In this document: piece after piece, positions 22,172-61,955 of the stretch
Layout of the letters: every line of letters starts with the position of its first letter
Position numbering within the stretch: position 1 is the first letter of the stretch
NCBI RefSeq assembly: GCF_001647285.1
Contig: NZ_LRML01000011.1
Coordinates: 1 to 64,000, forward strand
Origin: Rufibacter roseus
GTDB lineage: Bacteria; Bacteroidota; Bacteroidia; Cytophagales; Hymenobacteraceae
DNA: 64,000 bases
Direction of reading: 5' to 3'
The notes under the pieces: generated by a model
What the model was told of the DNA's origin: nothing
Database searches by the model: none
What the model saw: the letters and a program-made list of their open reading frames with translations, nothing else
Program-made: the position numbers and the translations under genes

Positions 22172-22185
22172 GGCTTTCCTCCGTG
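22164..22185 (-). promoter_or_regulatory. GGAGG ribosome binding site and ATGGATAA overlap between the pump halves
   Basis: On the minus strand, GGAGG is followed by a 6-base spacer (AAAGCC) and then ATGGATAA, which contains both the start of the downstream half and the stop (TAA) of the upstream half. Strong Shine-Dalgarno sequences are uncommon before Bacteroidota genes, so this one helps decide that the second half has its own start. Confidence 0.7.
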
Positions 22186-23444: not shown

Positions 23445-23469
23445 AAAAAGAAGGGAAGAAACTCTCCGG

Positions 23470-23511
23470 GCTGTTTTTGGCTCATTTTTCAGAAAACAGG
23501 CCAAAAACAGC
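23470..23511. repeat. Intergenic palindrome copy 5, inside the efflux operon
   Basis: A 42-bp inverted repeat (GCTGTTTTTGGC ... GCCAAAAACAGC) between the small metal-binding lipoprotein gene and the pump gene. The core has shifted from TTTTAGG to TTTTTGG with a matching change in the other arm. If it forms in RNA it may attenuate or stabilise the operon message. Confidence 0.88.
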
Positions 23512-37071: not shown

Positions 37072-37184
37072 TCCTAATGATTTGATGTACTCAACATTGT
37101 TCAACTTTAGCACACGGTCATCGTTGAGTTTTTTGTTATTAGAACTACCCTTCAAATAAGTTTTAGAAACTTGATTTTAATTTG

Positions 37185-38739: not shown

Positions 38740-38912
38740 TAGAGTTACTTTGGTTTTGGTAAATTTCATTGTTTGAACAGCCTCAGAAAAGGCATAACCC
38801 TCTCTTCAACAGATGCAGGCACCTGTTCTAAATCATGCTAGCAGGAGACTTGCTGCCATACCGTACCATGACAGCATGAACAGCAATCCTACAATTAACT
38901 AGAGGCAGTTAT

Positions 38913-39986: not shown

Positions 39987-40125
39987 AAGCGGCATTTCAT
40001 ATCTTACCTCTGAAATGGATAGCAGAATTACCCTTTAGAGGGTTAGACTTCATGTGAGTGTACTTGACTACTAATCAAGGCACAAGAAATATTATTAATC
40101 TTGATTCTTTAGCAATTTAATAATA

Positions 40126-40140
40126 GTTAATCGTTTAAAC
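40126..40140. promoter_or_regulatory. LacI operator candidate, upstream of GH43
   Basis: GTTAATCGTTTAAAC contains TTAATCGTTTAA, one base off the TTAATCGATTAA operators found near the first lacI gene. It lies 140 bp before the GH43 start on the minus strand. Confidence 0.55.
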
Positions 40141-45045: not shown

Positions 45046-48000
45046 TTAAAATCCGCACTGAATTCCAAAAGAGAAGATTCTGCTGGCTGGCCAGTTTCCT
45101 GAATCAAAACCTCTGTCCAAAATTCCGCTACCTACCACGTCCGGATCTAAACCACTGTATTTGGTGAAGGTGATTAAGTTCTGACCGCTTACAAAAATGC
45201 GTGCTGTTCCGAACCCAATTCGTGAAAGAGCAGCCTTAGGTAATGCATAGCCAACTTCAAGATTCCGAACTCTAACGTATGAGCCGTTTTCTAACCAACG
45301 GTCACTTGAGAAGGCGTTATTGAGAGCAATAGCCGGATCTCCTTCCTCTAAACCCAAGCGGGGGTCAGTGGTGTTGGTATTGTCTTCTCTCCAAGGATTG
45401 ATGTCACGTCTGAAGTTGTTCAATTGGTAACTATCCAGATCTCTTCTCACCCCATTGTATATTTTATTACCGAACACCCCTACCAGCTGCAAGTTCACGC
45501 TGAAATTCTTGTAAGAGGCGTTGAACTGGGCACCAGTTTGCAAAGTAGGCCATGGAGATCCACCCACGTAGGTACGGTCACCATCTTCCGTGATACGACC
45601 ATCATCATTGATGTCTACAAATCTGATATCACCTGGTCTGGCATCTGGCTGAATGATGGTACCCTGAGAATTTACGTGCGCATACACCTCATCATAGTTC
45701 TGGAAGATACCAGCGGTTTTCATAACGTACCACTCTCCCAACGGCCTTCCCACTTCACTACGGGTAAGGCCTGTAGAAATATAGTTCTGAACACGACCGC
45801 GGTTGCCTAAATCCAATACCTCATTCTTAATGGTAGTGGCATTTACAGAAACATCCCATTTCAATGCTCTTTCACTGTTACGGTAAGTTGCCCCAAACTC
45901 AAAGCCCCTGTTTCTGATAGAGGCGGCATTTACCGGTGGGTCGCCTTCTAGGTTACCTAAGTACAGCGCTATGGGCAGGTTTACCAATACATCTCTTGAT
46001 TCAGAGTTATAGGCGTTAAATTCCAGGGTAAGCTTGTTGTTGAACAAACCAGCGTCAAAACCTAAGTTCTGCACAATCCGGCTTTCCCATCTTAAGTCTG
46101 GGTTTGTCAGTCTTGCCTGATAGGCACCTATACCAATTATCTCAGAACCGTTAGGTCCAAAAACAGCTCTAGGGTTGCTGTTCAGGTAACCAATGTAATC
46201 CCATGAGCCCAATGTATTGATACCAAGCGTACCATAAGAGGCATTAATCTTTAGGTTATTTACCCATTCCACATTAAAAAACTCTTCTTCACTCAAGCGC
46301 CACGCGGCAGAGAATGACGGGAAGAAACCTGTTCTATAGGCCTCCCCAAACCTTGAGTCTTGATCAACACGGGCAGTAACGGTAAACAGGTAGCGGTCTT
46401 TCAACACATAATTCACCCGTCCTAAATACCCAAGGTTTCTGAAGTTATTGATCACGTCGCCGCTAACTGCAGCAGCACCACCGGCAGAATTAATAGTAGT
46501 GTAATATTGCCCATCTACCACCTGCAGGAAAGTACGCCCGGCTGTAGCACCCTCATGATGTATTGTCTGCTGAGTCACCCCAACAACCCCATCAATATGA
46601 TGCACCCCAAAGTCTTTTGTAAAATTTAAGGTGTGGTCAAACTTAGTGTTCAAGAATCTACCGCGGGCTTCATCAACTCTGGTTGAGTCTGAATTTTGGT
46701 TATAGCGCCAGTCGCCACGTTTTCTGATAGTTCTGGTGTGGTCAAAGCTTACTTCTAGACCTGCATCAAATTTATATGTAAGCCAATCTGCCACTTTCAC
46801 TTCCACGAACCCGTTACCAATCAACTTGGCAAAGTTGTCTCTTGTTCTCCACAGCTCATTTACTGCTATTGAATTCCATGCATACGTCTCAGCGTTTGCG
46901 TTTCCTATACCAAAACCACGAGGATTGTTACCGCCTACTCCAATATAAGAATCACTGCGCACCGGAATGACAGGCAACATTCTAGGAATGTCATAGAAAG
47001 GATTCCCACCTGCCGGTCTTTCCTGGACAGTATTGGTTAGGAGAAGGTTTTCTCCGAAAGAAACTCTACCTCTTTTGCTTCGGGTGTTAATCCGCAAGCT
47101 ACCTCTCTCAAAGTCGTGGCCAATCAATACCCCTTTGTTAGAGAAGAAGCTTCCTGACACCATATAAGTGCTGGTCTCAGAGCCACCTGAAACATTCAGG
47201 TTATAATCCTGCATGTTCCCTAACTGAAAAGCTTCTTCCTGCCAATCAGTATCAATAGACGGATCAAACTCATCGCTTACGCTTGGAGGGGCTGGCAGAC
47301 CGGCATTTTCAAACTGCACTCTTTGCAGAGCCGCAAACTCTGAAGCATTCATCAGGTCCCAGCGCTTTGGTATCTGCTGAATACCATATTTCGCAGAGAA
47401 CTCAACCTTGGCAGGGCCCTCACGACCTTGCTTTGTTGTAATAATAATTACCCCGTTACCGGCCCTGGAACCATAGATTGCCGCAGCCGAGGCGTCCTTT
47501 AATATCTGAATAGATTCAATGTCATTCGTGTTAACGGTAGTATTGGCATCAGACAACATACCATCAATCACATACAAGGGCGCCGTGTTTCTAAAACTTG
47601 CCGCGCCTCTAATTTCAATAGCAGCCCCCTGCCCTGGCCTTCCAGTTGTTCTCACCGTTACTCCAGGCGATAGGCCTTGTATAGACTCTGCAACGGTTGT
47701 AGCAGATACTCGGCTTGCTTGCTCTGTGTCTACCACAGCCACTGCACCAGTAAGATCTCTCTTTCTTACCGTCTGGTACCCGATCACCACCACCTCATTT
47801 AATGTTTGCTCGTCCGCCTGAAGAACAGCATTCACCACGGACTGACCAGCAATAGGCACCTCCAGAGGCGTATACCCCACATAAGAGAAGACAAGCGTAC
47901 CGTTCTCTTGATTTTCTGCCAGGTTAATCAAGTAATTCCCGCTAACATCTGTAGAAGCACCGTTTGTGGTTCCCTTCACCAATACAGTTACGCCTGGCAA

Positions 48001-48180
48001 AGGTTCACCACCTGCACTTGTCACTTTTCCGGTCAAGTTTCGCTGCTGCGCAAAAACCTCTTGCACCAGAGTGCTCAGCATTAGAAAAGTAAGCCCCAAA
48101 AGCACCCTTCTCCAATTGTTGCTCTCTAGGCGGCACGTTGAAGCACCTTGCCGCAATTCAATAGGTAACTTTTTTTTCAT
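45046..48180 (-). CDS. SusC/RagA-family TonB-linked outer membrane protein
   Basis: A 1,044-residue TonB-dependent transporter for oligosaccharides. Signal peptide (LLGLTFLMLSTLVQEVFAQ), carboxypeptidase-regulatory-like domain (about 48-130, NLTGKVTSAGGEPLPGVTVL), plug with EVVVIGYQTVRKRDLTGAVA and AAIYGSRAGNGVIIITTK, then the 22-strand barrel ending FSFGIQCGF. It pairs with the SusD gene 23 bp downstream. Its promoter and an operator for the divergent LacI regulator lie in the 664-bp intergenic region, so substrate-dependent induction by LacI rather than by an ECF or hybrid sensor is likely. Confidence 0.95.
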   Translation of the reverse strand: MKKKLPIELRQGASTCRLESNNWRRVLLGLTFLMLSTLVQEVFAQQRNLTGKVTSAGGEPLPGVTVLVKGTTNGASTDVSGNYLINLAENQENGTLVFSYVGYTPLEVPIAGQSVVNAVLQADEQTLNEVVVIGYQTVRKRDLTGAVAVVDTEQASRVSATTVAESIQGLSPGVTVRTTGRPGQGAAIEIRGAASFRNTAPLYVIDGMLSDANTTVNTNDIESIQILKDASAAAIYGSRAGNGVIIITTKQGREGPAKVEFSAKYGIQQIPKRWDLMNASEFAALQRVQFENAGLPAPPSVSDEFDPSIDTDWQEEAFQLGNMQDYNLNVSGGSETSTYMVSGSFFSNKGVLIGHDFERGSLRINTRSKRGRVSFGENLLLTNTVQERPAGGNPFYDIPRMLPVIPVRSDSYIGVGGNNPRGFGIGNANAETYAWNSIAVNELWRTRDNFAKLIGNGFVEVKVADWLTYKFDAGLEVSFDHTRTIRKRGDWRYNQNSDSTRVDEARGRFLNTKFDHTLNFTKDFGVHHIDGVVGVTQQTIHHEGATAGRTFLQVVDGQYYTTINSAGGAAAVSGDVINNFRNLGYLGRVNYVLKDRYLFTVTARVDQDSRFGEAYRTGFFPSFSAAWRLSEEEFFNVEWVNNLKINASYGTLGINTLGSWDYIGYLNSNPRAVFGPNGSEIIGIGAYQARLTNPDLRWESRIVQNLGFDAGLFNNKLTLEFNAYNSESRDVLVNLPIALYLGNLEGDPPVNAASIRNRGFEFGATYRNSERALKWDVSVNATTIKNEVLDLGNRGRVQNYISTGLTRSEVGRPLGEWYVMKTAGIFQNYDEVYAHVNSQGTIIQPDARPGDIRFVDINDDGRITEDGDRTYVGGSPWPTLQTGAQFNASYKNFSVNLQLVGVFGNKIYNGVRRDLDSYQLNNFRRDINPWREDNTNTTDPRLGLEEGDPAIALNNAFSSDRWLENGSYVRVRNLEVGYALPKAALSRIGFGTARIFVSGQNLITFTKYSGLDPDVVGSGILDRGFDSGNWPASRIFSFGIQCGF

Positions 48181-48321: not shown

Positions 48322-48335
48322 GTTAAGCGATTAAC
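48322..48335. promoter_or_regulatory. LacI operator candidate at the susC start site
   Basis: GTTAAGCGATTAAC, a palindrome with one broken pair, related to TTAATCGATTAA. It lies immediately downstream of the susC -7 element and would cover the transcription start, the classical place for repression. Confidence 0.6.
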
Positions 48336-48756: not shown

Positions 48757-48787
48757 TTGTATATTTAATCGATTAAGCATAGTTTAG
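48757..48787 (+). promoter_or_regulatory. Candidate lacI promoter with operator in its spacer
   Basis: TTG (48757-48759), 20-bp spacer, TAGTTTAG (48780-48787, imperfect -7). The operator TTAATCGATTAA (48765-48776) lies inside the spacer, consistent with autoregulation. Confidence 0.45.
48765..48776. promoter_or_regulatory. LacI operator, perfect TTAATCGATTAA palindrome
   Basis: A perfect 12-bp palindrome with the central CG expected of LacI-family operators, 69 bp before the lacI start. The same 12-mer recurs at 49902. Confidence 0.75.
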
Positions 48788-48844: not shown

Positions 48845-49861
48845 ATGAGAAATAAGGTATCTTTAAAAGACATAGCACAGAAAGTGGGAGTTTCTACCGC
48901 TGCAGTATCCTATGCTCTTAACAAGGAGAAAGAAGGAAAAGTGAGTGATGAAATGGCCGCCAAAATCAGGGCTACAGCAAAAGAACTCAACTACCAACCA
49001 AACCAAATTGCAAAAAGCTTAAAGATTGGGCGCACCAATACCTTAGGTTTAATTATTGCCGATGTTTCTAACCCATTCTTTGCCACCATTGCCCGAGTGG
49101 TAGAAGATGAGGCGAAAGCACATGGCTACACAGTAGTTTTTGGCAGCTCAGACGAAAAAGCAGAACGGTCATGGGACCTAATTAATGTTTTAGCAAATAG
49201 ACAGGTGGATGGATTAATCATTGCCCCGTCAGAAGCCTCAGAAGACCAAATACTATATTTAAAGGAGCAGAAGATACCTTTTGTTCTAATAGATAGATAT
49301 TACCCTGACATACCATCCAGCTTTGTTGTTCTTGATAATTACAAAGCTGCTTATGACGCCGTGTTTCACCTCATTGAAAATGGCAGAAAAAGGGTAGGCA
49401 TGTTAGCCTACAAAACAAACCTGTATCATATGCAGGAGAGAAAAAGAGGGTACCAGGAAGCTCTTCAGGCAGCAGAGCTTCCAGTAGGCAAAAGCCTTTT
49501 GAAGGAAGTAAAGCATGATGACACCAAGAACGGGGTAAAAGCTGCCATAGATGCTATGCTTGCTTCTCCAGAAGGACTTGACGCCCTATTCTTTGCCACC
49601 AACACCCTGGCAATACATGGTCTGAAATATATTGACAGCTTAAATCTTAAAGTTCCAACTGATCTAGCCATTGTCAGTTTTGATGAGGGTGAGGCATTTG
49701 ACTTTTACTACTGCCCTTTAACCCACATAAAACAACCAGTAGATGAAATTGGCAAAGAGGCGGTCCAGCTCCTACTAGATCAAATGTCTAGCTCCAACGG
49801 CAGAATAGGACAGATTCATTTTGAGCCTGAACTAATAATACGCCAGTCTAGCGGAGCTTAA
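48845..49861 (+). CDS. LacI-family regulator of the saccharide locus
   Basis: A 338-residue repressor: helix-turn-helix (about 5-50, VSLKDIAQKVGVSTAAVSYA, NYQPNQIAKSLK) and a periplasmic-binding-protein-like effector domain (about 60-335, TLGLIIADVSNPFFATIA, VDGLIIAPSE, FVLIDRYYP). It is divergent from susC and starts the lipoprotein-fucI-fucP-araB run. Four operator-like palindromes occur at 48322, 48765, 49902 and 40126, so it probably controls both arms of the locus and itself. The effector is likely a pathway sugar such as D-ribulose, D-arabinose or an oligosaccharide; this is inference. Confidence 0.92.
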   Translation: MRNKVSLKDIAQKVGVSTAAVSYALNKEKEGKVSDEMAAKIRATAKELNYQPNQIAKSLKIGRTNTLGLIIADVSNPFFATIARVVEDEAKAHGYTVVFGSSDEKAERSWDLINVLANRQVDGLIIAPSEASEDQILYLKEQKIPFVLIDRYYPDIPSSFVVLDNYKAAYDAVFHLIENGRKRVGMLAYKTNLYHMQERKRGYQEALQAAELPVGKSLLKEVKHDDTKNGVKAAIDAMLASPEGLDALFFATNTLAIHGLKYIDSLNLKVPTDLAIVSFDEGEAFDFYYCPLTHIKQPVDEIGKEAVQLLLDQMSSSNGRIGQIHFEPELIIRQSSGA

Positions 49862-49901: not shown

Positions 49902-49913
49902 TTAATCGATTAA
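49902..49913. promoter_or_regulatory. LacI operator, second perfect TTAATCGATTAA
   Basis: The identical 12-bp palindrome, between lacI and the lipoprotein gene, 81 bp before the start at 49994. It implies a separate regulated promoter for the catabolic genes. Confidence 0.75.
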
Positions 49914-49993: not shown

Positions 49994-51235
49994 ATGAAAA
50001 AAACTCCCCTTTTAATCCTTCTTCTAGCTATGAGCCTACAGGCATGCCAAACCAACGAGAGTAAAACCCAAGAACAGTCAACAGCCTCTCAGCAGAGTAC
50101 TGAAGGCTCTTTTGGGTATGACTTAAATTTCCTGAAGAGCAAAGACGACAGCCTTGTTGTACTTAAAAGCGCAGATGGATCTAGCCAGGTGATTGTATCT
50201 GCTAAATACCAAGGGAAAGTATTTACCTCTACCGCAGAAGGCATAGATGGTAGAAGCTTTGGCTGGATTAACTATGAGGCTTTTGATGCCCCTATTGACC
50301 CACACATGAATGCCTACGGCGGAGAGAACAGATTATGGCTTGGTCCTGAAGGAGGTAAGTTCTCTATCTTTTTCAGACCGAACGCTAAAATGGTTTTTGA
50401 CAACTGGGCTACACCGGCTGCCATTGACACAGAACGTTGGCAAGTACTTTCCAGTGGACAAGACAAGGTTTCAATGCAAAAAGAAACCTCTATTCAGAAC
50501 TACTTAGGCACCACCCTGAACACTAAAATCAAACGTGATGTACAGATACTAACCAGTGCTGAAATTGAGAGCATGCTGGGAGTGGGCGCAGGCGAAGGAG
50601 TAAAAGTGGTTGGTTTTAAAACCAACAATGCTATCACCAACACAGGTGACAAAGCCTGGACAAAAGAAACAGGAGCTCCCTGTATCTGGATTCTTGACAT
50701 GTTCAACCCTGCCAACGGCACCGTAATTGTGGTTCCTTTCAATGAGCAGGCTACCGGCAAAGTAGCTACCACCGATTATTTTGGGGAGATACCAGAAGAC
50801 CGCATTAAGTACAATAACGGGATTTTGTATTTTAAAGCAGACGGTAAATCAAGAGGCAAATTAGGCTTGGCCCCAGAGAGAGCAAAACCTATTGCCGGCA
50901 GCTATGACCCTACCAACAATGTGCTAACCGTTACAAAATTTGATGTAGACAACAATGGCGTTTATCTCAACCAAGAATGGACCACGGCAAAAGATCCACT
51001 AAAAGGTGATGCTGTCAATGCATACAATGATGGTCCTCTGGAAGATGGAAGCCAAATGGGTCCTTTCTATGAAATTGAAAGCGTTTCACCGGCAGCGTTC
51101 CTTCAGCCTGGCCAAACACTTACCCATAACCACAGCGTTTTCCACTTTACCGGTGACAAAGCCGCATTAGATCAAATTGCGCAGAAGATTTTTGGTGTCT
51201 CCCTGGAAACCATTCAAAATACATTTCAAAAGTAA
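49994..51235 (+). CDS. Lipoprotein, DUF6786-like, possibly mutarotase fold
   Basis: A 413-residue lipoprotein (AMSLQAC, Cys about 18) followed by a Gln/Ser/Thr linker. It contains [20 protein letters not shown] (about 108-127) and late [18 protein letters not shown] and [10 protein letters not shown] (about 357-386), a pattern seen in galactose-mutarotase-like beta-sandwich proteins. I believe the family is DUF6786, from memory. It stands directly before fucI (41 bp) under its own operator, so it may epimerise or bind the sugar outside the cytoplasm. No activity is established from the sequence. Confidence 0.55.
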
Positions 51236-51276
51236 GAAGCATAGTCAAGTTGAGACTAGCTGTTGAACAAAGACAA

Positions 51277-53052
51277 ATGAAAGAAGCAAAAGAAGAATAT
51301 CCAAGAATAGGCATCAGACCTATTATAGACGGCCGATTGGGCGGCGTGCGTGAGTCATTGGAAGAAACCACCATGAACATGGCTCGCAACGTAGCAGCGT
51401 TGTTTGAGCGTGAATTGAAATATCCAGACGGCACCCCAGTACAATGTGTAATTGCTGACTCCACCATTGGTGGTGTAAAAGAAGCAGCCGACTGTGCTAA
51501 AAAGTTTGAGAGAGAAAATGTAGGAGTTTCTTTGTCAGTTACCCCCTGCTGGTGCTACGGCACTGAAACCATAGACATGAACCCTCATCTGCCTAAGGCA
51601 ATTTGGGGCTTTAACGGAACCGAAAGACCTGGTGCAGTTTATCTGGCCGCGGCACTTGCCGGGCACAACCAAAAGGGTTTACCAGCCTTTGGGATATACG
51701 GCAAAGACGTTCAGGATGTAGGCGATCTTTATGTACCGGAAGATGTAAAGTCTAAGCTTTTAAGCTTTGCCAGAGCAGGTCTGGCCGTAGCCATCATGCG
51801 CGGAAAATCATACCTAAGCATTGGCTCAGTTTCAATGGGTATTGCCGGATCTATTGTAGATGCTGATTTCTTTCAGAACTACCTGGGCATGCGCAATGAG
51901 TATGTTGATTCTACAGAGGTGTTGAGAAGAATTGAGCATAATATTTTTGATCAGGAAGAATATGCCAAAGCTATTGCCTGGACAAAAGAGAACTGTAAAG
52001 AAGGAGAAGACTTTAACCCAGCGGAAAAGCAGAGCACCAGAGAGCAAAAAGACCAAGATTGGGAGTTCGTGGTGAAAATGACCCTAATTATTCGGGATCT
52101 GATGATTGGCAACGAGAAGTTGGCAGAGATGGGATTTGGAGAAGAGGCTTTTGGTCACAATGCCATAGCGTCAGGCTTCCAAGGCCAGCGCCAGTGGACA
52201 GACTTTTTACCGAACGGAGACTTTCCAGAAGCAATCTTGAACTCCTCTTTTGACTGGAACGGAATCAGGGCACCCTTCATGGTAGCCACTGAAAACGACT
52301 CGCTGAACGGCGTGCCTATGTTGTTCGGTCACCTGCTCACCAATACGGCTCAGATCTTTGCCGATGTAAGAACTTATTGGAGCCCTGAAGCGGTAGAACG
52401 CGTTTCCGGCTGGAAACCAACTGATCAGGCTGCCAACGGATTCATCCACCTGATCAACTCGGGCTCCTGCACCTTAGACGGCACCGGCCAACAATCGCGT
52501 GACGGCCAGCCTGCCATGAAGCCTTTCTGGGAGATTAGTGAAGAAGAAGCTCAAGCCTGTTTAAACGCTACCACTTGGTACCCTGCCAACAATGGCTACT
52601 TCAGAGGGGGCGGCTATTCTTCTAAGTTTTTGACTAAAGGTGGCATGCCCGTCACCATGAGCCGGATTAACCTGATCAAAGGCCAAGGCCCCGTGTTGCA
52701 GATAGCGGAAGGTTATACCATTGATATTCCGGAGAATGTACACCAGATATTAGATGAGCGCACTGACAGAACCTGGCCTACCACTTGGTTTGTGCCAAAA
52801 CTAACCGGTCAGGGAGCCTTCAGAGATGTGTATTCTGTAATGGCCAACTGGGGCTCTAACCATGGCTCTATCAGCTACGGACACGTAGGCTCAGATCTAA
52901 TCACGCTTGCCTCTATGCTCCGGATTCCGGTTTGTATGCACAATGTGGAAGATGAGCGTATTTTCAGGCCTTCTGCCTGGAGCGCCTTTGGCATGGACCC
53001 AGAAGGTTCAGACTACCGTGCCTGCCAAACCTATGGCCCTGTCTATAAATAG
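51277..53052 (+). CDS. fucI: L-fucose isomerase / D-arabinose isomerase
   Basis: A 591-residue cytoplasmic isomerase from the ATG at 51277; the frame is open from a TTG 27 bp earlier that is not needed. It matches E. coli FucI nearly end to end: [85 protein letters not shown], and SYGHVGSD (Mn-binding/catalytic regions). FucI converts L-fucose to L-fuculose and equally D-arabinose to D-ribulose. No fuculokinase or fuculose-phosphate aldolase gene is in the window; instead araB follows, so D-arabinose is the more coherent substrate. It is followed by a hairpin and a palindrome. Confidence 0.95.
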
Positions 53053-53067
53053 ATTTTCATTCCACTC

Positions 53068-53114
53068 AATGCGCAGGCAGTTGCAAATTTTAGTTAGTTA
53101 ACTGCCTGCGCATT
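53068..53114 (+). terminator. Hairpin after fucI
   Basis: A 15-bp stem AATGCGCAGGCAGTT with its complement and a 17-base loop, 16 bp after the stop. Only a short T stretch follows, so it may be a partial terminator or an mRNA 3' end stabiliser before fucP. Confidence 0.6.
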
Positions 53115-53148
53115 TAACTAACACGCTGCACACTTTAATTTTTGATTT

Positions 53149-53190
53149 CTGTTTTAAGCCTAAATTTTCAAAAACAGGTCTGAAACACAG
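53149..53190. repeat. Intergenic palindrome copy 11
   Basis: CTGTTTTAAGCCT and GGTCTGAAACACAG arms around AAATTTTCAAAAACA. It is a degenerate member of the family in the fucI-fucP gap. Confidence 0.75.
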
Positions 53191-53284
53191 CTTTTAAGTC
53201 TACTCTCTTTGCACTCCTTACTATTCTAAACAAACGCATGTAAACCAGCCTACCGGCACCACCAAACTCAAACAAGCAAGAACA

Positions 53285-54613
53285 ATGGCGAAGGATTTTA
53301 GAAGTTCCATGATCAAGTCGGCCAACCTATGGCCTTTTATTCTTATCACTAGCCTTTTCTTCTTCTGGGGGTTGGCTAATAACATGACCGATACGCTGCT
53401 GGCAGCTTTTAAGCGAATCATGAGCATGACTGATTTCCAGACCTCCTGGATTCAGTTAGCCTTTTATGGTTCTTATTTTTGCCTGGCTTTGCCAGCCGCC
53501 ATCATCATCAAAAAGTACACTTACAAATCGGGGGTATTATTGGGGCTGGGGCTTTTCATTTTAGGTGCTTTGCTGTTTTACCCAGCAAGCCAATCTATGG
53601 ATTACGCCCACTTCCTGATTGCCTTGTTCATTCTGGCAGGTGGCTTATCTATTCTGGAAACCGCGGCCAATCCGTTTGTGTTTGCCATGGGCTCGGAAGA
53701 AACCGGAACCAGACGCTTGAATCTGGCCCAGTCATTCAACCCAATCGGCTCTATGACGGGCGTACTGCTCAGCAAGCTGTTCATTTTGTCGCAACTGAAT
53801 AAAGCCAGTGCTGAAGAAAGAGCAGACATGACAGCTGAGCAGCTACAGACCATTCAATCAGACGAACTCTCGTCAGTAATGGGTCCTTATGTAGGTGTAG
53901 CCGTTGTGCTGGTACTTTTAGGAATACTGATCAAGACCACTAAAATGCCTGAAATGAAAGATGAAGGTAGATTAGACCTGGGGGCAACTTTTAAAAGGCT
54001 TCTGAAAAAGCCGACATATGTGTGGAGCGTAATTGCGCAGTTCATTTATGTAGGGGTGCAGATCTGTGTATGGTCTTTTACGATCAGATACGTAATGGAA
54101 CAGCTCAGCCTGAACGAAGACGACTCTTCTAACTATTACCTGGTTTCTCTGATCTTATTTGCCAGCTGCCGGTTTATTTTCACAGGCTTGATGAAATACA
54201 TCAGACCAAGAATATTACTGCTGTTCTCCGCTATTGCGGCTGTGGCATTTACCTTGATAGTTATTTATGGTAGCGGGCATTTAGGTGTTTATGCTTTAAT
54301 AGGTATTTCAGGTTGCATGTCCTTAATGTTCCCTACCATTTATGGCCTAGGCATGCGTGGTGTAGGCAAAGACACTAAGATAGCCGGATCGGGTATGATT
54401 ATGGCAATTTTAGGAGGCGCCATTTTGCCTGTTTTTCAAGGGCAGATGTCAGATTCAACCCAAAGCATTTCGCTTTCTTTTTATATCCCATTATTCTGCT
54501 TCGCCTTTATTGCCTTATATGCGCTATTTGGTGCTAAGCTGGATAAATCAGCTGATTACGGAACAGAAAACGAAGTATTGGAAAAAGAGCCATTAACAAA
54601 AGCGGTAATCTAA
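53285..54613 (+). CDS. fucP: FucP-type sugar:H+ symporter (MFS)
   Basis: A 442-residue inner-membrane transporter of the fucose:H+ symporter family with about 12 membrane helices. Matches to E. coli FucP include SLFFFWGLANNMTDTLL, SWIQLAFYGSYFCLALPA, ETAANPFVFAMGSEE, RRLNLAQSFNPIGSMTGVLL, and YVGVQICVWSFTIRYVME. The E. coli protein carries L-fucose, L-galactose and D-arabinose. It lies between fucI and araB in the same direction, so import of D-arabinose or a similar sugar into the isomerase-kinase route is the natural reading. Confidence 0.9.
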   Translation: MAKDFRSSMIKSANLWPFILITSLFFFWGLANNMTDTLLAAFKRIMSMTDFQTSWIQLAFYGSYFCLALPAAIIIKKYTYKSGVLLGLGLFILGALLFYPASQSMDYAHFLIALFILAGGLSILETAANPFVFAMGSEETGTRRLNLAQSFNPIGSMTGVLLSKLFILSQLNKASAEERADMTAEQLQTIQSDELSSVMGPYVGVAVVLVLLGILIKTTKMPEMKDEGRLDLGATFKRLLKKPTYVWSVIAQFIYVGVQICVWSFTIRYVMEQLSLNEDDSSNYYLVSLILFASCRFIFTGLMKYIRPRILLLFSAIAAVAFTLIVIYGSGHLGVYALIGISGCMSLMFPTIYGLGMRGVGKDTKIAGSGMIMAILGGAILPVFQGQMSDSTQSISLSFYIPLFCFAFIALYALFGAKLDKSADYGTENEVLEKEPLTKAVI

Positions 54614-54721
54614 AGTCTGTTTAACCTGAGGTTTGATACAAGTAGAAATCTGTTAAACAATTATTTTCTGTCTTATTGTGCCATCTGCCGCGGGCATACT
54701 TTTACCAAATTTGACAATATC

Positions 54722-56434
54722 ATGAGCGAAGATAAATATGTGATTGGGGTTGATTACGGAACCGACTCAGTACGGTCTGTTATTGTGCATGCCAGTACCG
54801 GTAAAGAGGTAGCGGCAGCCACGTTTGTTTACCCACGCTGGAAAAAAGGGCTGTACTGCAACGCCGCTAAAAACCAATTCAGACAGCACCCATCTGATTA
54901 TATAGAGGGGCTGGAACAAACTGTTAAGCAGTGCCTGCAACAAGTAGATGCTGCCGTAAGGGCTGGCATTAAGGCTTTGTCAGTAGACACTACTGGTTCT
55001 ACGCCGGTAGCTGTGAATGAGGCAGGTGTTCCTTTAGCGCTTCTTCCAGAGTTCAGCGAGAACCCCAATGCCATGTTTGTGCTTTGGAAAGACCACACTG
55101 CCGTAAAAGAGGCGGCTGAAATAAACGCTCATGCGGAACAATTTGAGAAGAACTACCTGCAGTATGTGGGTGGCATTTATTCCTCTGAATGGTTCTGGGC
55201 TAAAATGCTTCATGTGCTACGGCAAGATGAACAAGTCAGAAACGCCTGCTATACCTGGGTAGAACATAGCGATTGGATTCCTTTTCTATTGACCGGGGGC
55301 ACAAAGTCCTCAGAAATCAAAAGAAACGTTTGTGCTGCGGGCCATAAAGGATTATGGTCAGCTGACTTTGGTGGCTTTCCGCCGGAAGAGTTCTTTGCCA
55401 CGCTTGACCCAGTGCTGGCAGGACAAGCCAACCGCCTGAGCAACCAAACCTATGCCGCAGACGCACCTGCCGGACAAATTAGTCAGGAATGGGCAGAGCG
55501 GCTTGGTTTGCCACAGGATATGCTCATTGGCATAGGCGCCATAGATGCGCACATGGGAGCCGTAGGCGGTCAGATAGAACCTTATCATTTACTCAAGGTG
55601 ATGGGCACTTCAACCTGCGATATGATTGTTGCGCCTGCCGAATCATTTGAAGACACGCTGGTAAAAGGAATCTGCGGCCAAGTGAATGGCTCCATCATTC
55701 CTGGCATGATAGGCATGGAGGCCGGTCAGTCTGCCTTCGGTGATGCGTTTGCCTGGTTCAAGGACTTGATAGCGTGGCCCCTACAGCACCTTTTATCTAA
55801 CTCTACCCTTATTGATTCTGCCACAGCCAAAGCTCTAGTGCAGGAGACTTCAGACAAGATCCTTTCTGAGTTAAGTAAGCTGGCGGCCCAACTACCTGTA
55901 GAAACTGAGAGCGAACTGGCCGTGGATTGGCTAAATGGCAGACGTACTCCCGATGCCGACCAAACCTTAAAAGCAGCTTTCAAAGGCCTGAGTTTAAGTT
56001 CAGACGCCCCAAGTATGTTTAAAGCGCTAGTGGAAGCTACCTGCTTTGGCGCCCGCAGAATTGCTGACCGATTTGTAGAGCAAGGCGTTCCGGTGAAAGG
56101 AGTTATTGGAATTGGCGGCGTAGCAAAGAAGTCACCTTTTGTGATGCAAACCATGGCCGATGTGTTGGGTATGCCTATCAAAATACACGAGTCTGAGCAG
56201 ACTTGCGCGTTAGGAGCCGCCATGTTTGCCGCTACAGTAGCTGGATTATACCCCAATGTTCAGGCTGCCATGGAAAAAATGGGCGGTGGGTTTGATCAAG
56301 TCTACACCCCAGAACCACAAAAAGCTGAAGTATATACCCTCCGCTACCAAAAGTATTTGGAGTACTGTAAGTTCATAGAGTTTGGGAACACTGCTTTGAA
56401 GGAAACCCAAGAAAATTTGGTTGGTGCTGTTTAA
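54722..56434 (+). CDS. araB: Ribulokinase
   Basis: A 570-residue FGGY-family kinase that phosphorylates ribulose with ATP. It matches E. coli AraB strongly: GVDYGTDSVRSVIV, WKKGLYCNAAKNQFRQHPSD, ENPNAMFVLWKDHTAVKEA, GGIYSSEWFWAKMLHV, GAIDAHMGAVGGQIEP, KVMGTSTCDMIV, GMEAGQSAFGDAFAWF, WLNGRRTPDADQTL. AraB accepts both L- and D-ribulose. No araA or araD is present here, whereas fucI is, so the product may be D-ribulose 5-phosphate feeding the pentose phosphate pathway directly. It starts 108 bp after fucP. Confidence 0.95.
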   Translation: MSEDKYVIGVDYGTDSVRSVIVHASTGKEVAAATFVYPRWKKGLYCNAAKNQFRQHPSDYIEGLEQTVKQCLQQVDAAVRAGIKALSVDTTGSTPVAVNEAGVPLALLPEFSENPNAMFVLWKDHTAVKEAAEINAHAEQFEKNYLQYVGGIYSSEWFWAKMLHVLRQDEQVRNACYTWVEHSDWIPFLLTGGTKSSEIKRNVCAAGHKGLWSADFGGFPPEEFFATLDPVLAGQANRLSNQTYAADAPAGQISQEWAERLGLPQDMLIGIGAIDAHMGAVGGQIEPYHLLKVMGTSTCDMIVAPAESFEDTLVKGICGQVNGSIIPGMIGMEAGQSAFGDAFAWFKDLIAWPLQHLLSNSTLIDSATAKALVQETSDKILSELSKLAAQLPVETESELAVDWLNGRRTPDADQTLKAAFKGLSLSSDAPSMFKALVEATCFGARRIADRFVEQGVPVKGVIGIGGVAKKSPFVMQTMADVLGMPIKIHESEQTCALGAAMFAATVAGLYPNVQAAMEKMGGGFDQVYTPEPQKAEVYTLRYQKYLEYCKFIEFGNTALKETQENLVGAV

Positions 56435-56607: not shown

Positions 56608-56622
56608 CGCAATCGATTACGC
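56608..56622. promoter_or_regulatory. Second-LacI operator candidate (upstream copy)
   Basis: CGCAATCGATTACGC, an imperfect palindrome with the same AATCGATTACG core as the site at 56811. The two centres are about 206 bp apart, which could allow DNA looping. Confidence 0.6.
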
Positions 56623-56813: not shown

Positions 56814-56830
56814 CGTAATCGATTACGTAA
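56811..56830. promoter_or_regulatory. Perfect 20-bp LacI operator at the start of the second lacI gene
   Basis: TTACGTAATCGATTACGTAA is a perfect palindrome ending 3 bp before the ATG at 56834. A repressor bound here would block its own transcription start and so that of the whole lacI-SGLT-galK-galT run. Confidence 0.8.
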
Positions 56831-56833
56831 ACT

Positions 56834-57880
56834 ATGGGGCGAACTACTATTCATGACATAGCGAAGGAGCTGAATACGACAGCTGCCACGGTATCGCGGG
56901 CGCTGAATGATCATCCTTCTATCAGCGCGGCCATGAAAGAGATTGTGCGGAAGACTGCCCACCAGCTAAACTACCAACAAAACCGGATTGCCTCTTCCTT
57001 ACGCTCTGGCAAAACCTTTGTGATTGGAGTTGTGATTCCGAGTGCAGACATCAGTTTTTTTGGCTCGGTAATCCATGGCATTGAAATGGTAGCTAAAACC
57101 CACGGCTACAATGTCATCCTTTTCCAAACAAATGAGCGGTATGAAGATGAAGTACAGGGCATACAAACCCTATTGCAGTCTAATGTAGATGGAATTATTG
57201 CTTCTATCACTAAAGAAACCTCCAACTTTGACCATTTTCTGGAAGTAAAAAGACGGGGAATTCCGCTTATTCTGTTTGATAGAGCCACCGACGAACTGGG
57301 TGTTTCTACGGTAGTAATTGATGATTACAAAGGTGCTTTTATGGCTACGGAACACTTGCTCCAGCAGGGTTACACCCGTATTGCGCATATTGCGGGTCCC
57401 TCCCATATCAAGATCTTCCATGAGCGCCTGCGAGGGTACGTGGATGCATTGGCTGCCCACCACATCAAAATAGACGAAGACCTGATCACTTATGGCAAAG
57501 TGTCCATTGAGTCTGGCAGAACCTGCACTCAGCAACTGCTCCAGCTCCAGAAAAACCGACCCGATGCCATCTTTGCGGTAGAAGATTTCACGGCTCTTGG
57601 AGCCATGGAAGCTATCAAAGAAAGCCAATGGAACCGCCCTGGGCAGATTGGGTTAGTTGGCTTTGCGAACGAAGCCTTCAGCGCCTACATCACCCCTAGC
57701 CTTACCACCATTGACCAACAGACAGCTCTAATGGGGCAAGAAGCCGCCAAACTTCTCATGGATCAGCAGCAGGCAGAGCAACATCATGAAAAAAGCCCGC
57801 AGAAAATAGTGCTGGAGCCTCTCTTGATTCAGCGTCAGTCGTCTATGCGGCGGCAGACCAAACAGAAAACAGCCTCTTAA
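56834..57880 (+). CDS. LacI-family regulator of the galactose cassette
   Basis: A 348-residue repressor with the helix-turn-helix TTIHDIAKELNTTAATVSRA and NYQQNRIASSLRSG (about 3-58) and a sugar-binding effector domain (VIGVVIPSADISFFGSVIHG, VDGIIASITKE, PLILFDRATDEL, VVIDDYKGAF). The C-terminus is Gln/Lys rich. It starts a tandem run with the transporter 52 bp downstream and then galK and galT, so it is likely an autorepressor induced by galactose or a derivative. Its operator half-site (ACGTAATCG) differs from that of the first LacI (TTAATCG). Confidence 0.92.
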   Translation: MGRTTIHDIAKELNTTAATVSRALNDHPSISAAMKEIVRKTAHQLNYQQNRIASSLRSGKTFVIGVVIPSADISFFGSVIHGIEMVAKTHGYNVILFQTNERYEDEVQGIQTLLQSNVDGIIASITKETSNFDHFLEVKRRGIPLILFDRATDELGVSTVVIDDYKGAFMATEHLLQQGYTRIAHIAGPSHIKIFHERLRGYVDALAAHHIKIDEDLITYGKVSIESGRTCTQQLLQLQKNRPDAIFAVEDFTALGAMEAIKESQWNRPGQIGLVGFANEAFSAYITPSLTTIDQQTALMGQEAAKLLMDQQQAEQHHEKSPQKIVLEPLLIQRQSSMRRQTKQKTAS

Positions 57881-57932
57881 TTTCATTAAACTAACTCTAA
57901 ACAAACTAACAAACCTGAAACACTTTTAAGCT

Positions 57933-59570
57933 ATGGGACTACATACCATTGACTATGCCATCTTCCTGCTATACTTCCTGATTGTCTCGGGGTACGGCTA
58001 CTGGATTTACAAGCGCAAGCAAAGCGCCACCCTTGACTCTAAAGAATTCTTTCTGGCCGAGGGCTCGCTGACCTGGTGGGCCATTGGGGCCTCGCTCATT
58101 GCCTCCAACATTTCCGCAGAGCAGTTCATTGGTATGTCGGGTTCTGGTTTTGCCATGGGTCTGGCCATTGCCAGTTATGAATGGATGGCAGCTGCCACCC
58201 TTATCATAGTGGCGGTTTTCTTTATTCCTATCTACCTCAAGAACAAGATTTACACCATGCCGCAGTTCCTGTCGCAGCGGTACAACAATGGCGTAAGTAC
58301 CATTATGGCCGTGTTTTGGCTGCTAGTGTACGTGTTCGTGAACCTTTCCTCTATTCTGTACCTGGGCGCGCTGGCCATTGTCACCATTACCGGAATTGAG
58401 TTTTACACCTGTATGGTGGGCATGGCTATCTTCGCCATCTTTATTACCCTGGGCGGCATGAAAGTAATTGGCTACACAGATGTGATTCAGGTGTTCGTGC
58501 TGGTGCTGGGAGGCTTGGCCACTACCTACCTGGCTTTGGATTTGGTGTCTACCCAATTGGGCGGCACCGGCGTTTGGGACGGACTTACTATGCTGCATTC
58601 AGAAGCCACGGACCACTTTAGCATGATTCTTTCTGAAGGCGAGTTGATGATACCGGACGGCGAGGGCGGTACCCGTGACGCCTACATGGACTTACCTGGT
58701 TTATCTGTAATTATCGGCTCAATGTGGATTATCAACCTGAGCTACTGGGGCTGTAACCAGTACATTACACAGCGCGCTTTGGGTGCCGACCTGCAAACTG
58801 CCCGCAGCGGTCTGTTGTTTGCTGCATTCTTGAAACTGTTGATGCCCATTATTGTGGTGTTGCCCGGTATTGCCGCCTACGTGTTGTTCCAGAACGGTCT
58901 TTTCCAAACCGAGATGACCAATGAGTTGGGGCACGTGAAACCTGACCACGCTTATCCGGTGCTGCTGGAACTGCTGCCTATTGGTTTGAGAGGACTTTCG
59001 TTTGCAGCACTTACCGCTGCCATTGTAGCCTCACTGGCCGGTAAAGCCAACAGCGTCTCCACCATCTTCACCTTAGACATTTACCAGAAATTCTTCAACA
59101 AAACCGCCTCTGAGAGAAAACTGGTAAGCGTGGGCCGCTGGGCCGTGGTAGTGTCTTTTGTCATTGCCGTGCTGGTGGCGCCCCAGTTGCGTAAACTAGA
59201 CCAGGCATTCCAGTACATTCAGGAATATACCGGCTTTATCTCTCCGGGCGTGTTCGCCATCTTTATCCTGGGCTTCTTCTGGAAACGCACCACGTCTGCG
59301 GCTGCCTTAACCGCCGCCATTCTGACTATACCGCTGTCTACGTTCCTGAAATTCCAGTTCGCCGAGATTCCGTTCATTAACCGTATGGGTATTGTGTTTG
59401 TGGTACTGGCCGTGCTGATGGTGATCATCAGTTTACTAGATTCCAAAAGCAAGAACAACCCCAAAGGCTTGGAAATCGACGCCAGTATGTTCAAACCTAC
59501 CACATCCTTTACGGTGGGCTCCATTATTATCTGCGGCATTCTGGCCGCGCTTTATACCATGTTCTGGTAA
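57933..59570 (+). CDS. SGLT-type sodium/sugar symporter
   Basis: A 545-residue solute:sodium symporter with about 14 membrane helices, close in pattern to vSGLT: GYGYWIYKRK, DSKEFFLAEGSLTWWAIGAS, LIASNISAEQFIGMSGSGFA, KIYTMPQFLSQRYN, WGCNQYITQRALGA, GLSFAALTAAIVASLAGKAN and FTLDIYQKF. Neighbouring galK and galT make D-galactose the likely substrate, as for vSGLT. It lies 52 bp after lacI and 85 bp before galK. Confidence 0.92.
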   Translation: MGLHTIDYAIFLLYFLIVSGYGYWIYKRKQSATLDSKEFFLAEGSLTWWAIGASLIASNISAEQFIGMSGSGFAMGLAIASYEWMAAATLIIVAVFFIPIYLKNKIYTMPQFLSQRYNNGVSTIMAVFWLLVYVFVNLSSILYLGALAIVTITGIEFYTCMVGMAIFAIFITLGGMKVIGYTDVIQVFVLVLGGLATTYLALDLVSTQLGGTGVWDGLTMLHSEATDHFSMILSEGELMIPDGEGGTRDAYMDLPGLSVIIGSMWIINLSYWGCNQYITQRALGADLQTARSGLLFAAFLKLLMPIIVVLPGIAAYVLFQNGLFQTEMTNELGHVKPDHAYPVLLELLPIGLRGLSFAALTAAIVASLAGKANSVSTIFTLDIYQKFFNKTASERKLVSVGRWAVVVSFVIAVLVAPQLRKLDQAFQYIQEYTGFISPGVFAIFILGFFWKRTTSAAALTAAILTIPLSTFLKFQFAEIPFINRMGIVFVVLAVLMVIISLLDSKSKNNPKGLEIDASMFKPTTSFTVGSIIICGILAALYTMFW

Positions 59571-59585
59571 CAGACTATCAAATGT

Positions 59586-59622
59586 TGGGCAGATGCGTTA
59601 TAGTTACTGACGCATCTGCCCA
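59586..59622 (+). terminator. Hairpin between transporter and galK
   Basis: A 13-bp stem TGGGCAGATGCGT / ACGCATCTGCCCA with an 11-base loop and no T-run. It is an intra-operon structure that could set the transporter/galK mRNA ratio. Confidence 0.55.
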
Positions 59623-59655
59623 CAACCTATTATTCTTCAAATAAAAGCTGACACT

Positions 59656-60828
59656 ATGGTTCAAGATATCGTAGATAAATTCAAGCAATTATATAATCAG
59701 GAACCCGTGGTGGTGCGCTCGCCGGGCCGGGTGAACCTAATTGGTGAACATACTGACTACAACAACGGCTTTGTGCTTCCGGCGGCCGTGAACAAGGAAA
59801 TTTACTTCGCCATTGCCCCCAACGGCACTGACAACATGCGCGTCTATGCCTTTGATTTGCAGGAGCAGGCAACATTTGACTTAAACCAGGTGGCGCGGCA
59901 GAAAATTGGTTGGGCGAACTATCTGCTGGGCGTGGTGGCTCAGTTTCAGAAAGCGGGCCATGCGGTGAAAGGTTTTAACCTGGTGTTTGGTGGCAATGTA
60001 CCTATGGGGGCTGGCATGTCATCCTCGGCGGCCGTGGAATGTGGCTTGGCCTATGCCCTTAATTACCTGTTCGCATTTAATATTGAGAAATTCACGTTGG
60101 TGAAGATGGCGCAGAAAGCCGAGCACGAGTTTGCAGGTGTTATGTGCGGCATCATGGATCAGTTTGCCAGCATGTTTGGCAAACACAATCACGTGGTAAA
60201 GCTAGACTGCCGTTCTTTGGAGTATCAATACTACCCGTTCAACATTGAGGATTACCGTATTGTGCTCTGTGACACGCAGGTAAAACACTCACTGGCCTCC
60301 AGCGAGTACAACACCCGCCGCAAAGAATGCGAGACCGGCGTAGCAATCTTACAGAAGCATTACCTGCAGGTCAAAAGCCTGCGCGATGTCACCCTTGAGA
60401 TGCTCACCCGCCACCAACACGAATTTGACCCAGTAGTATACAAGCGCTGCCGGTATGTGGTAGAGGAAAACTTACGCGTGGAAGAAGCCTGTTCAGATCT
60501 GGAGCAGGGCAATTTAGAAGCGTTCGGTCAGAAGATGTACGCCTCGCACCAAGGCCTGCAGCATGACTACGAGGTAAGCTGCCCTGAGCTGGATTTCTTA
60601 GCTGACGCTGCCAAACAATCTGGCGCTGCTTTAGGAGCCCGTATGATGGGCGGCGGATTTGGCGGCTGCACCATTAATCTGGTAAAACTGGAAAGGCTAG
60701 ATGATTTCACAGCCCGGATGTCCGAGGCCTACCAGAAACATTTCGGAATTACCTTAAAAACCTACGTAGCCCAGATTGTAGACGGCAGCAGTCTGGTTTC
60801 CACTGATTTTTCAAAAACCAGCCTATAA
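59656..60828 (+). CDS. galK: Galactokinase
   Basis: A 390-residue GHMP kinase that phosphorylates D-galactose to galactose 1-phosphate. Signature motifs: VRSPGRVNLIGEHTDYNNGF (galactokinase signature, about 20-39), the phosphate loop MGAGMSSSAAVECGL (about 117-131), CGIMDQFASMFGK and MMGGGFGGCTINLV. Length is normal. The last eight or so codons and the TAA overlap a sequence resembling half of the palindromic repeat (60803-60832), so the C-terminus DFSKTSL may have been replaced by a repeat insertion. Confidence 0.96.
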   Translation: MVQDIVDKFKQLYNQEPVVVRSPGRVNLIGEHTDYNNGFVLPAAVNKEIYFAIAPNGTDNMRVYAFDLQEQATFDLNQVARQKIGWANYLLGVVAQFQKAGHAVKGFNLVFGGNVPMGAGMSSSAAVECGLAYALNYLFAFNIEKFTLVKMAQKAEHEFAGVMCGIMDQFASMFGKHNHVVKLDCRSLEYQYYPFNIEDYRIVLCDTQVKHSLASSEYNTRRKECETGVAILQKHYLQVKSLRDVTLEMLTRHQHEFDPVVYKRCRYVVEENLRVEEACSDLEQGNLEAFGQKMYASHQGLQHDYEVSCPELDFLADAAKQSGAALGARMMGGGFGGCTINLVKLERLDDFTARMSEAYQKHFGITLKTYVAQIVDGSSLVSTDFSKTSL

Positions 60829-60832
60829 ACAG
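60803..60832. repeat. Degenerate half palindrome at the galK stop
   Basis: CTGATTTTTCAAAAACCAGC then CTATAAACAG follows the centre and right arm of the repeat (TTTTTCAGAAAACAGGCCTAAAACAG) with a few changes. It covers the galK stop codon. The left arm is hard to align, so chance cannot be ruled out. Confidence 0.45.
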
Positions 60833-60841
60833 AACGTAATC

Positions 60842-60877
60842 TGGCCGCTCTTGCACCTGCAAAGCGGCCATTTTTGT
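60842..60877 (+). terminator. Terminator after galK
   Basis: Stem TGGCCGCT / AGCGGCCA with a 15-base loop and TTTTTG after it. galT begins 53 bp later, so this may only attenuate transcription into galT. Confidence 0.7.
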
Positions 60878-60929
60878 AATTGATATTGCTACTCACTTAT
60901 TCAATCACCCACTCATTCACTCATTCACC

Positions 60930-61955
60930 ATGAGCACCTTTGATTTAACCGACCACTCTCACCGAAGATATAATTCCCTTACCGGCGAATGGGTGCTGGT
61001 ATCGCCGCATCGCTCTAAAAGACCATGGCAGGGGCAACAGGAAGAAACCCAGCGGGAGCAGAGGCCTGAGTACGACCCTAGTTGCTACCTCTGCCCTACT
61101 AACACCCGCGCCAACGGAGAGACAAATCCTGACTATGACGCCACCTTTGTGTTTGTGAATGATTTTGCGGCACTGCAAGCTGATTCGCCCAGCGGCTCTT
61201 TCTCTAAAGGAGGCTTACTCAAAGCCGAAAGCGAAAGAGGTATCTGCAAAGTAATCTGCTTCTCACCCCGCCATGACCTCACCTTGTCTGACATGGCAGT
61301 TGAAGACATAAAAAAAGTGATAGACCTGTGGCAAAAAGAGTATCTGGAGCTGGGAGCGTTAGAGTACATCAACTACGTGCAGATTTTTGAGAACAAAGGG
61401 CAAGTAATGGGCAGCAGCAATCCGCACCCGCACGGCCAGATTTGGGCTCAAAGCTCCGTACCGGTAGAACCCGCCAAAGAAATGGCCCAGCAGGCTGCTT
61501 ATTACAGAGAAAACGGCCGCAGCCTTTTAGCCGATTATCTACAGCTTGAGCTAGAGGAAAAGTCGCGGGTAGTACTGGAGAATGAGCACTTTGCGGCGCT
61601 GGTTCCTTTTTGGGCTGTTTGGCCTTTTGAAACCATCATCATCAGTAAGCGGCATTTCCAGCACCTGGGGCAGATCTCAGAGGATGAAAAAGTAGCTTAT
61701 GCAAAGATTATGAAGCAGCTCTCGGCGGTGTATGACAGCCTTTTTCAAACCAGCTTCCCCTATTCCGCCGGACTGCACCAAAGCCCCACCGACGGGCAGG
61801 AGCACCCGGAGTGGCACTTCCACATGCACTTCTACCCGCCCTTGCTGCGTTCCGCCACGGTGAAAAAGTTTATGGTGGGCTATGAAATGATGGGCAACCC
61901 TCAGCGTGATATTACTCCTGAAAGCGCCGCCGAACGGCTGCGGAGTTTGGCGTAA
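60930..61955 (+). CDS. galT: Galactose-1-phosphate uridylyltransferase
   Basis: A 341-residue Leloir-pathway enzyme that swaps UMP between UDP-glucose and galactose 1-phosphate. Motifs: [20 protein letters not shown], zinc-type [17 protein letters not shown], the active-site [14 protein letters not shown] (HPHGQ nucleophile His, about 168) and [17 protein letters not shown]. galE is not in the window. It ends the galactose run and is convergent with the CNNM gene, with a palindrome between them. Confidence 0.96.

Follow-up and report, generated by a model that had tools for sequence, protein, structure and literature searches.

Why would a bacterium place a sugar isomerase and a symporter from families named for L-fucose beside a kinase of the AraB family, and which sugar would such genes serve? 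The question is raised by a FucI-FucP-AraB gene run of Rufibacter roseus within the window analysed here, a stretch of 64,000 bp (bases 1–64000 of contig 3) from a draft genome of 5.12 Mb in 39 contigs that is 99.99% complete. A preliminary description had read the run as a route from D-arabinose to D-ribulose 5-phosphate in a locus dedicated to D-arabinan. This reading is supported by pathway enzymes that the genome lacks, by the match of a GH172 enzyme (glycoside hydrolase family 172) in the same locus, and by an operator that reaches as far as GH116 genes elsewhere in the genome. Most likely, the genes free D-arabinose from polymers of the cell wall, mycobacterial ones for example, and channel it into central metabolism.

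The run at 49994–56434 is real, ordered, and confined to one strand, but position 49994 proved to be the start of a DUF6786 lipoprotein and not of FucI, so that there are four genes rather than three. Their reading frames are open and follow one another on the + strand: the DUF6786 lipoprotein, which has the aldose 1-epimerase fold and is a predicted mutarotase (49994–51235; 561 bits); the L-fucose/D-arabinose isomerase FucI (51277–53052 from its ATG, with an alternative TTG start at 51250; TIGR01089, 1095 bits, cut-off 850); a FucP-family sugar:H+ symporter (53285–54613; 464 bits with TIGR00885, cut-off 280, and 324 bits with NF007524, below its cut-off of 427); and an AraB-family ribulokinase, predicted to act on D-ribulose (54722–56434; 714 bits with NF003154, cut-off 428, and 582.4 bits with TIGR01234, marginally below its cut-off of 583.25).

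Candidate sugar routes in the genome

E. coli FucI and FucP accept D-arabinose, and the single FucI copy found in the R. roseus genome has as its best PDB match 3a9r, named D-arabinose isomerase (1009 bits, against 892–929 bits for the structures named L-fucose isomerase). L-arabinose is, to our knowledge, not a FucI substrate, which counts against its use here. For the next step, purified E. coli AraB phosphorylates D-ribulose (PMC12307932). FucI and AraB alone would carry D-arabinose to D-ribulose 5-phosphate.

The routes for the other two sugars appear interrupted. Fuculokinase, fuculose aldolase, AraA, and AraD had been described as absent from the run, and by family searches this holds for the whole genome. 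Both AraD and FucA appear to be missing, because a search for class II aldolases (PF00596) that was positive in 12 of 14 control genomes came up empty in this one; AraA appears to be missing because AraA_N (PF02610) had no match in the genome, the same search being positive in five of the 14 controls. An FGGY_C search of the genome returned four matches, FucK not among them: the AraB of the run; GlpK, whose gene adjoins one with glycerophosphate-oxidase domains; a XylB-like kinase on contig 37, found with XylA and XylE (324 bits with the XylB profile, under the cut-off of 380); and a protein on contig 23 that was rejected as a sugar kinase, being the chaperone HscA. A xylose role for AraB was also rejected, since the XylB-like kinase with XylA and XylE makes AraB dispensable for that sugar. 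The fucPIKUAO route fails at FucK and FucA, so that L-fucose would halt at fuculose or its phosphate, and the araBAD route fails at AraA and AraD, which would leave L-arabinose without an isomerase. As judged by protein families, conversion of D-arabinose via D-ribulose to D-ribulose 5-phosphate is the sole complete route among the three sugars, as had been proposed.

Predicted D-arabinan hydrolases and a shared operator

The GH172 gene that had been assigned to the locus is indeed there (37591–38769, − strand; PF11175, or DUF2961, 319 bits), in a divergent operon with SusC and SusD. Its product has, as read by eye, a signal-like N terminus, and residues 44–391 match the exo-α-D-arabinofuranosidase structure 8ic8 with 403 bits; the three remaining GH172 structures score lower, at 147 (αFFase1), 130, and 129 bits. 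By sequence, the locus thus has a predicted exo-α-D-arabinofuranosidase resembling ExoMA1. In all, the genome encodes three GH172, two GH116, and one GH183/DUF4185 enzymes. The GH116 encoded beside a GH172 on contig 1 matches the exo-β-D-arabinofuranosidase structure 8ic6 with 341 bits (next match 32 bits), and the genome's other GH116 shares 68% identity with this protein. An ExoMA2-like exo-β-D-arabinofuranosidase is therefore predicted as well, its gene lying on another contig with the same operator upstream. Both GH116 proteins have a twin-arginine-like N terminus when read by eye.

The operator is the palindrome TTAATCGATTAA, a pattern derived from two sites in the window, one at 48765–48776 between SusC and LacI and the other at 49902–49913, 81 bp upstream of DUF6786-FucI-FucP-AraB. 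Exact copies occur at four sites in the 5.12 Mb genome, against none for the reversed control and a chance expectation of 0.61 (base composition) or 0.33 (first-order model), both models having been built from 222 kb of the genome's own sequence. The other two sites, independent of the derivation, are both on contig 1: the one at 351716 precedes the GH116-GH172 pair, and the one at 237015 precedes the second GH116. The exact operator thus stands before both GH116 genes of the genome. Co-regulation of araA/araD or fucK/fucA by this operator elsewhere, which the preliminary description had named as a counter-indication, was not seen: the other sites stand only before GH116 genes. A LacI-family regulator whose gene precedes the four-gene run (48845–49861, + strand; PF00356, PF13377) is the presumed ligand of the palindrome and probably binds TTAATCGATTAA at all four places.

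The second GH116 gene opens a locus at 237425–250144 of contig 1, in which it is followed by SusC, SusD, a CobW-domain gene, the third GH172, and a GH43; the locus adjoins GH32 genes, a PfkB kinase, and a hybrid two-component sensor.

A conserved module around FucI

A scan of the genome collection with FucI gave at least 594 stretches, at least 586 of which encode a relative of FucI. From the 586, the top 80 loci were kept; these are the nearest relatives and not a random sample, and they were searched with proteins of the window, of the same genome, and of E. coli as reference. The nearest FucI among them, that of Sabulibacter ruber (Hymenobacteraceae), is 94% identical. DUF6786 stands alongside FucI in 29 of the 80 loci and AraB (>500 bits) in 15; a further 23 loci are of the fucose type, and 28 are of neither kind. 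Loci with DUF6786 differ markedly from the remaining 51 in what else they hold: a close GH172 (19/29 against 0/51), AraB (13/29 against 2/51), and GH116 (9/29 against 0/51) are found with DUF6786, whereas FucK (0/29 against 20/51), FucA (0/29 against 11/51), and FucU (0/29 against 14/51) are found only without it. Any of close GH172, GH116, and GH183 is present in 21 of the 29 DUF6786 loci and in none of the 23 fucose-type loci. The co-occurrence of DUF6786 and AraB with FucI exceeds chance.

The phylogeny of FucI, drawn by a quick method, agrees: of the 32 rows that carry a DUF6786 or AraB label, 30 belong to one group of 38 (support 98), whose other eight members are unlabelled and which includes no fucose-type row. 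Members of the module belong to the Hymenobacteraceae, Flavobacteriaceae, Cytophagaceae, Chitinophagaceae, Sphingobacteriaceae, and Tannerellaceae. The exact operator TTAATCGATTAA recurs in 7/29 DUF6786 loci of other Bacteroidota, where it stands before LacI, GH172, DUF6786, SusC, or FucP, and in 0/51 other FucI loci; LacI relatives 59%–82% identical to that of the window occur in L008, L009, L013, and L034, loci with the same palindrome. In a metagenome-assembled genome of the Sphingobacteriales, the cassette's FucI and FucP flank a GH183 gene (L018:4763–5863).

The AraB lineage

At E 1e-60, AraB occurs in 100 of the 291 genomes of the order, among the matches listed. Thirty of these loci were fetched; 27 have AraD or AraA alongside, one has neither these nor a fucose-type partner, and two have FucP or FucI, namely the window's own and one of genome G250, which holds both kinds of AraB. 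A tree of 45 AraB proteins (L121 was dropped for an internal stop, L123 is unlabelled, and two long, oddly composed rows of FucI context, L026 and L033, are included) needs two label changes to separate 17 sequences beside FucI from 27 of L-context, against about 13.8 when the labels are shuffled. The window AraB groups with Sabulibacter and Pedobacter AraBs beside FucI (99/97) and stands apart from the AraBs encoded in araBAD loci of its genus and family.

The two kinds are fully separated by the residue directly before the DAH motif, which is I, M, or L in 17/17 AraBs beside FucI (Ile274 in the window) and F or Y in 27/27 of L-context, E. coli included. Twenty further loci added 19 L-context AraBs, all 19 with F; the twentieth, L166, duplicates the gene of L112 and so gives no independent test. 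The 49 loci covered by this check represent a part of the listed AraB matches of the order. The Bacillus halodurans ribulokinase 3qdk has V at this position of the alignment, which weighs against a strict switch; the residue is thus a marker and not a proven switch, and this single position is a candidate handle on the use of D- versus L-ribulose.

The DUF6786 protein

The DUF6786 protein has the galactose-mutarotase-like β sandwich of the aldose 1-epimerase fold. At the sequence level it had no match to Aldose_epim (PF01263), matching solely PF20583 at E 0.001, and a PDB sequence search gave no match at E up to 1. Residues E111, E360, E362, H378, and H384 are invariant, and H104 nearly so. 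A literature search by the names DUF6786 and PF20583 found no paper in the collection searched. As a marker of D-arabinose use only, DUF6786 was rejected, the family being wide (48/291 genomes of the order) and mostly without FucI nearby; the nearer DUF6786 subgroup alone goes with FucI. In another genome of the order (L159), DUF6786 lies beside a FucK-like kinase and FucP, a context that hints at a more general role for sugars of the D-arabino/L-fuco type.

Proposed route

Within a D-arabinan regulon, the four-gene run would act as the inner arm. GH172 and GH116, with their signal-like N termini, would free D-arabinose from α- and β-D-arabinofuranosyl chains, and SusC/SusD would take up oligosaccharides. 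Outside the inner membrane, the DUF6786 lipoprotein probably converts sugar anomers into one another, after which FucP would bring D-arabinose in for FucI to convert to D-ribulose and AraB to D-ribulose 5-phosphate, for a pentose phosphate pathway whose enzymes are presumed present. The LacI repressor, encoded between the operons, probably releases TTAATCGATTAA in response to D-arabinose or a product of it. From the sequences we infer the substrates and localisation of the proteins, the pairing of regulator and operator, and the inducer, and that the polymer would be arabinogalactan or a related glycan of Mycobacteriales.

A wider proposal, advanced tentatively and with somewhat less than even confidence, is that a dedicated D-arabinose module of LacI, GH172, DUF6786, FucI, FucP, and AraB has spread between Bacteroidota classes, that its separate AraB lineage turned into a D-ribulokinase bearing the Ile/Leu/Met mark, and that its DUF6786 proteins constitute a novel family of secreted mutarotases acting on sugars of D-arabino/L-fuco configuration. 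If this were true, many free-living Bacteroidota would graze on actinobacterial cell walls. The cassette would also be a marker for finding D-arabinan degraders and gives DUF6786 a candidate function.

Evidence against and alternative explanations

Several observations weigh against a D-arabinan regulon. A GH183/DUF4185 gene, which the preliminary description had suggested seeking, exists in one copy (best PDB match the endo-α-D-arabinanase 8hhv, 169 bits), but it is outside the window, on another contig, in an α-mannan locus without the operator. When one mismatch to TTAATCGATTAA is allowed, 11 sites (four exact) are found against 15 for the reversed control, no excess at all; the seven inexact sites are weak evidence because of this count, even with four of them in the same loci, two in the window (48323–48334, 143 bp upstream of SusC, and 40127–40138, 132 bp upstream of the GH43-GH172 genes) and two on contig 1 (a second site near 237015, and one before a SusC/SusD-GH172-GH43 group). 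Among the 29 DUF6786 loci, ten have no close GH172, including the nearest relatives L008 (Sabulibacter ruber) and L009 (the latter carrying a GH116), eight have none of the three hydrolase markers, and 16 show no AraB, some of these ending at contig ends. In genome G160 of the same family, LacI-DUF6786-FucI is present and the sole AraB match adjoins AraD, so that a dedicated kinase is not obligatory. Within the order, 28 of 30 DUF6786 loci fetched (the window's included) have no FucI within 1.5 kb. Finally, for two GH43s of the window the best PDB matches include the α-L-arabinofuranosidase 3akf, which would be in keeping with a plant glycan as substrate; the usual L-arabinose route is nonetheless missing from the genome that carries them.

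The alternative that survives best keeps the D-arabinose pathway, and is compatible with the reading above, but takes the sugar from another source: lipoarabinomannan, pilin or other D-arabinose glycans, or free D-arabinose. It is a plausible, though lesser, possibility. The position of the sole GH183 in an α-mannan locus with GH92, GH76, and GH125 would suit lipoarabinomannan, and Pseudomonas aeruginosa PA7 pili bear α-1,5-linked D-arabinofuranose (PMC10115798). The neighbouring GalK and GalT and the three GH43s of the operon instead hint at D-galactofuranose as a partner sugar, as in arabinogalactan, a hint that is weakened by the different palindrome of the GalK-GalT group. The GH183 locus itself (41142–74649 of contig 1) contains three GH92, two GH76, GH125, GH97, and sulfatase genes and its own SusC/SusD, and could be an arabinomannan or lipoarabinomannan locus.

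Use of L-fucose, with FucI and FucP in the role for which their families are named and with AraB or another kinase taking fuculose, is very unlikely. The shared ring configuration of D-arabinose and L-fucose speaks for it. Against it, a genome without a class II aldolase match would leave fuculose phosphate without a known cleavage enzyme, FucK is not among the FGGY matches, loci with DUF6786 or AraB among the 80 relatives never also show FucK, FucA, or FucU, and fucosidase families did not turn up among the window proteins scanned.

Use of L-arabinose from plant arabinan released by the GH43s, AraB acting as it usually does and FucI taking the place of AraA, has AraB family membership, the 3akf matches, and two genomes of the same genus in its favour (araB adjoins araD in G196 and G228, and also araA in G228), but it is scarcely credible in a genome without AraA and AraD matches whose AraB clusters with FucI-side AraBs rather than with those of araBAD loci in its genus and family, and whose GH172 and GH116 have as relatives ExoMA1 and ExoMA2, specific for α- and β-D-arabinofuranose respectively (PMC10509167).

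The surrounding locus

The divergent operon, all on the − strand, runs in the order SusC, SusD, FG-GAP protein, BNR_2 lipoprotein, GH43, GH172, GH43, aldose epimerase, GH43. Its SusC/RagA outer-membrane TonB transporter (45046–48180; TIGR04056, 788 bits) and SusD-like glycan-binding lipoprotein (43484–45022; PF07980, 138 bits) are followed by an FG-GAP repeat protein with a type IX secretion tail (41610–43412; PF13517, PF18962) and the BNR_2 repeat lipoprotein (40157–41368; PF13088, 61.5 bits), a candidate hydrolase whose PDB matches are weak and sialidase-like. The first GH43 has a lipoprotein-like N terminus (38913–39995; PF04616, 221 bits), its best PDB matches being 3k1u (named beta-xylosidase), 9nxj, 9nxg, and 3akf at 258–248 bits. 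The second (35968–37155; PF04616, 149 bits) matches the GH43 structures 9nxj (166 bits) and 9nxg (165 bits) and then 3akf (152 bits). An aldose 1-epimerase family protein (34744–35934; PF01263, 313 bits) and the third GH43, with a C-terminal GH43_C2 domain (33098–34717; PF04616, 268 bits; PF17851, 60 bits), both have lipoprotein-like N termini; PDB matches of the latter are mixed, at 138 bits at most, and those of the three GH43s together leave their specificity unsettled.

On the 3′ side, the run is followed by a second LacI, a sodium/solute symporter, GalK, and GalT (56834–61955). This group has its own palindrome, GTAATCGATTAC, at 56609–56620 and 56815–56826, one copy bearing one mismatch and lying 206 bp further upstream than the other, and its substrate may be the D-galactose half of arabinogalactan. 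Elsewhere in the window, an AcrB-type RND pump gene (20279–23504) reads as two adjacent open reading frames, one matching the N-terminal and the other the C-terminal half of the family profile.

Comparison with known systems

The E. coli L-fucose/D-arabinose cluster is similar in that its fucose locus houses DarK, a D-ribulokinase for the metabolism of D-arabinose (PMC12307932); DarK, however, is an insertion in a fucose operon, whereas here the kinase is of AraB type and the genome is without fucK and fucA. An AraB-family kinase is shared with the araBAD operon, from which the present system differs in a genome without AraA or AraD match. None of the excerpts of D-arabinan literature compared mentions the operator common to these loci, the grouping of the AraBs, or the association with DUF6786, the search by name having been aimed at DUF6786 only.

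Another point of comparison is the cluster of Microbacterium arabinogalactanolyticum, reported by Shimokawa et al. For that cluster, excerpts of PMC10509167 give demonstrated activities for GH172 (exo-α), GH116 (exo-β), and GH183 (endo) enzymes and propose that a putative isomerase and kinase, for which they name no families, lead to D-ribulose 5-phosphate. The host is Gram-positive and employs an ATP-binding cassette importer, unlike the SusC/SusD, FucP, FucI, AraB, and DUF6786 lipoprotein found here. Closer in lineage is Dysgonomonas gadei, in which, during growth on D-arabinan, a predicted fucose isomerase was the most abundant carbohydrate-active enzyme and is encoded in a polysaccharide utilisation locus with GH172 and DUF4185 genes (Al-Jourani et al., PMC10115798); the word ribulokinase is absent from the main text of that paper. 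This locus, PUL42, is likewise of Bacteroidota and combines GH172 and DUF4185/GH183 genes with a fucose isomerase, but it unites three GH172s and the DUF4185 genes in one place, where R. roseus distributes its genes over at least three loci tied by one operator, and its GH183 gene is not among them. Loci for D-arabinan that include a fucose isomerase are thus already in the literature, and in the light of the D. gadei and M. arabinogalactanolyticum studies the route proposed for R. roseus is a known pathway in another lineage. This Hymenobacteraceae bacterium would hold a nearly full D-arabinan kit (exo-α and exo-β enzymes, uptake, isomerase, and kinase, with the endo enzyme elsewhere), joined across three loci by a four-site regulon, and D-arabinan-degrading enzymes are sought as tools for the study of mycobacterial cell walls.

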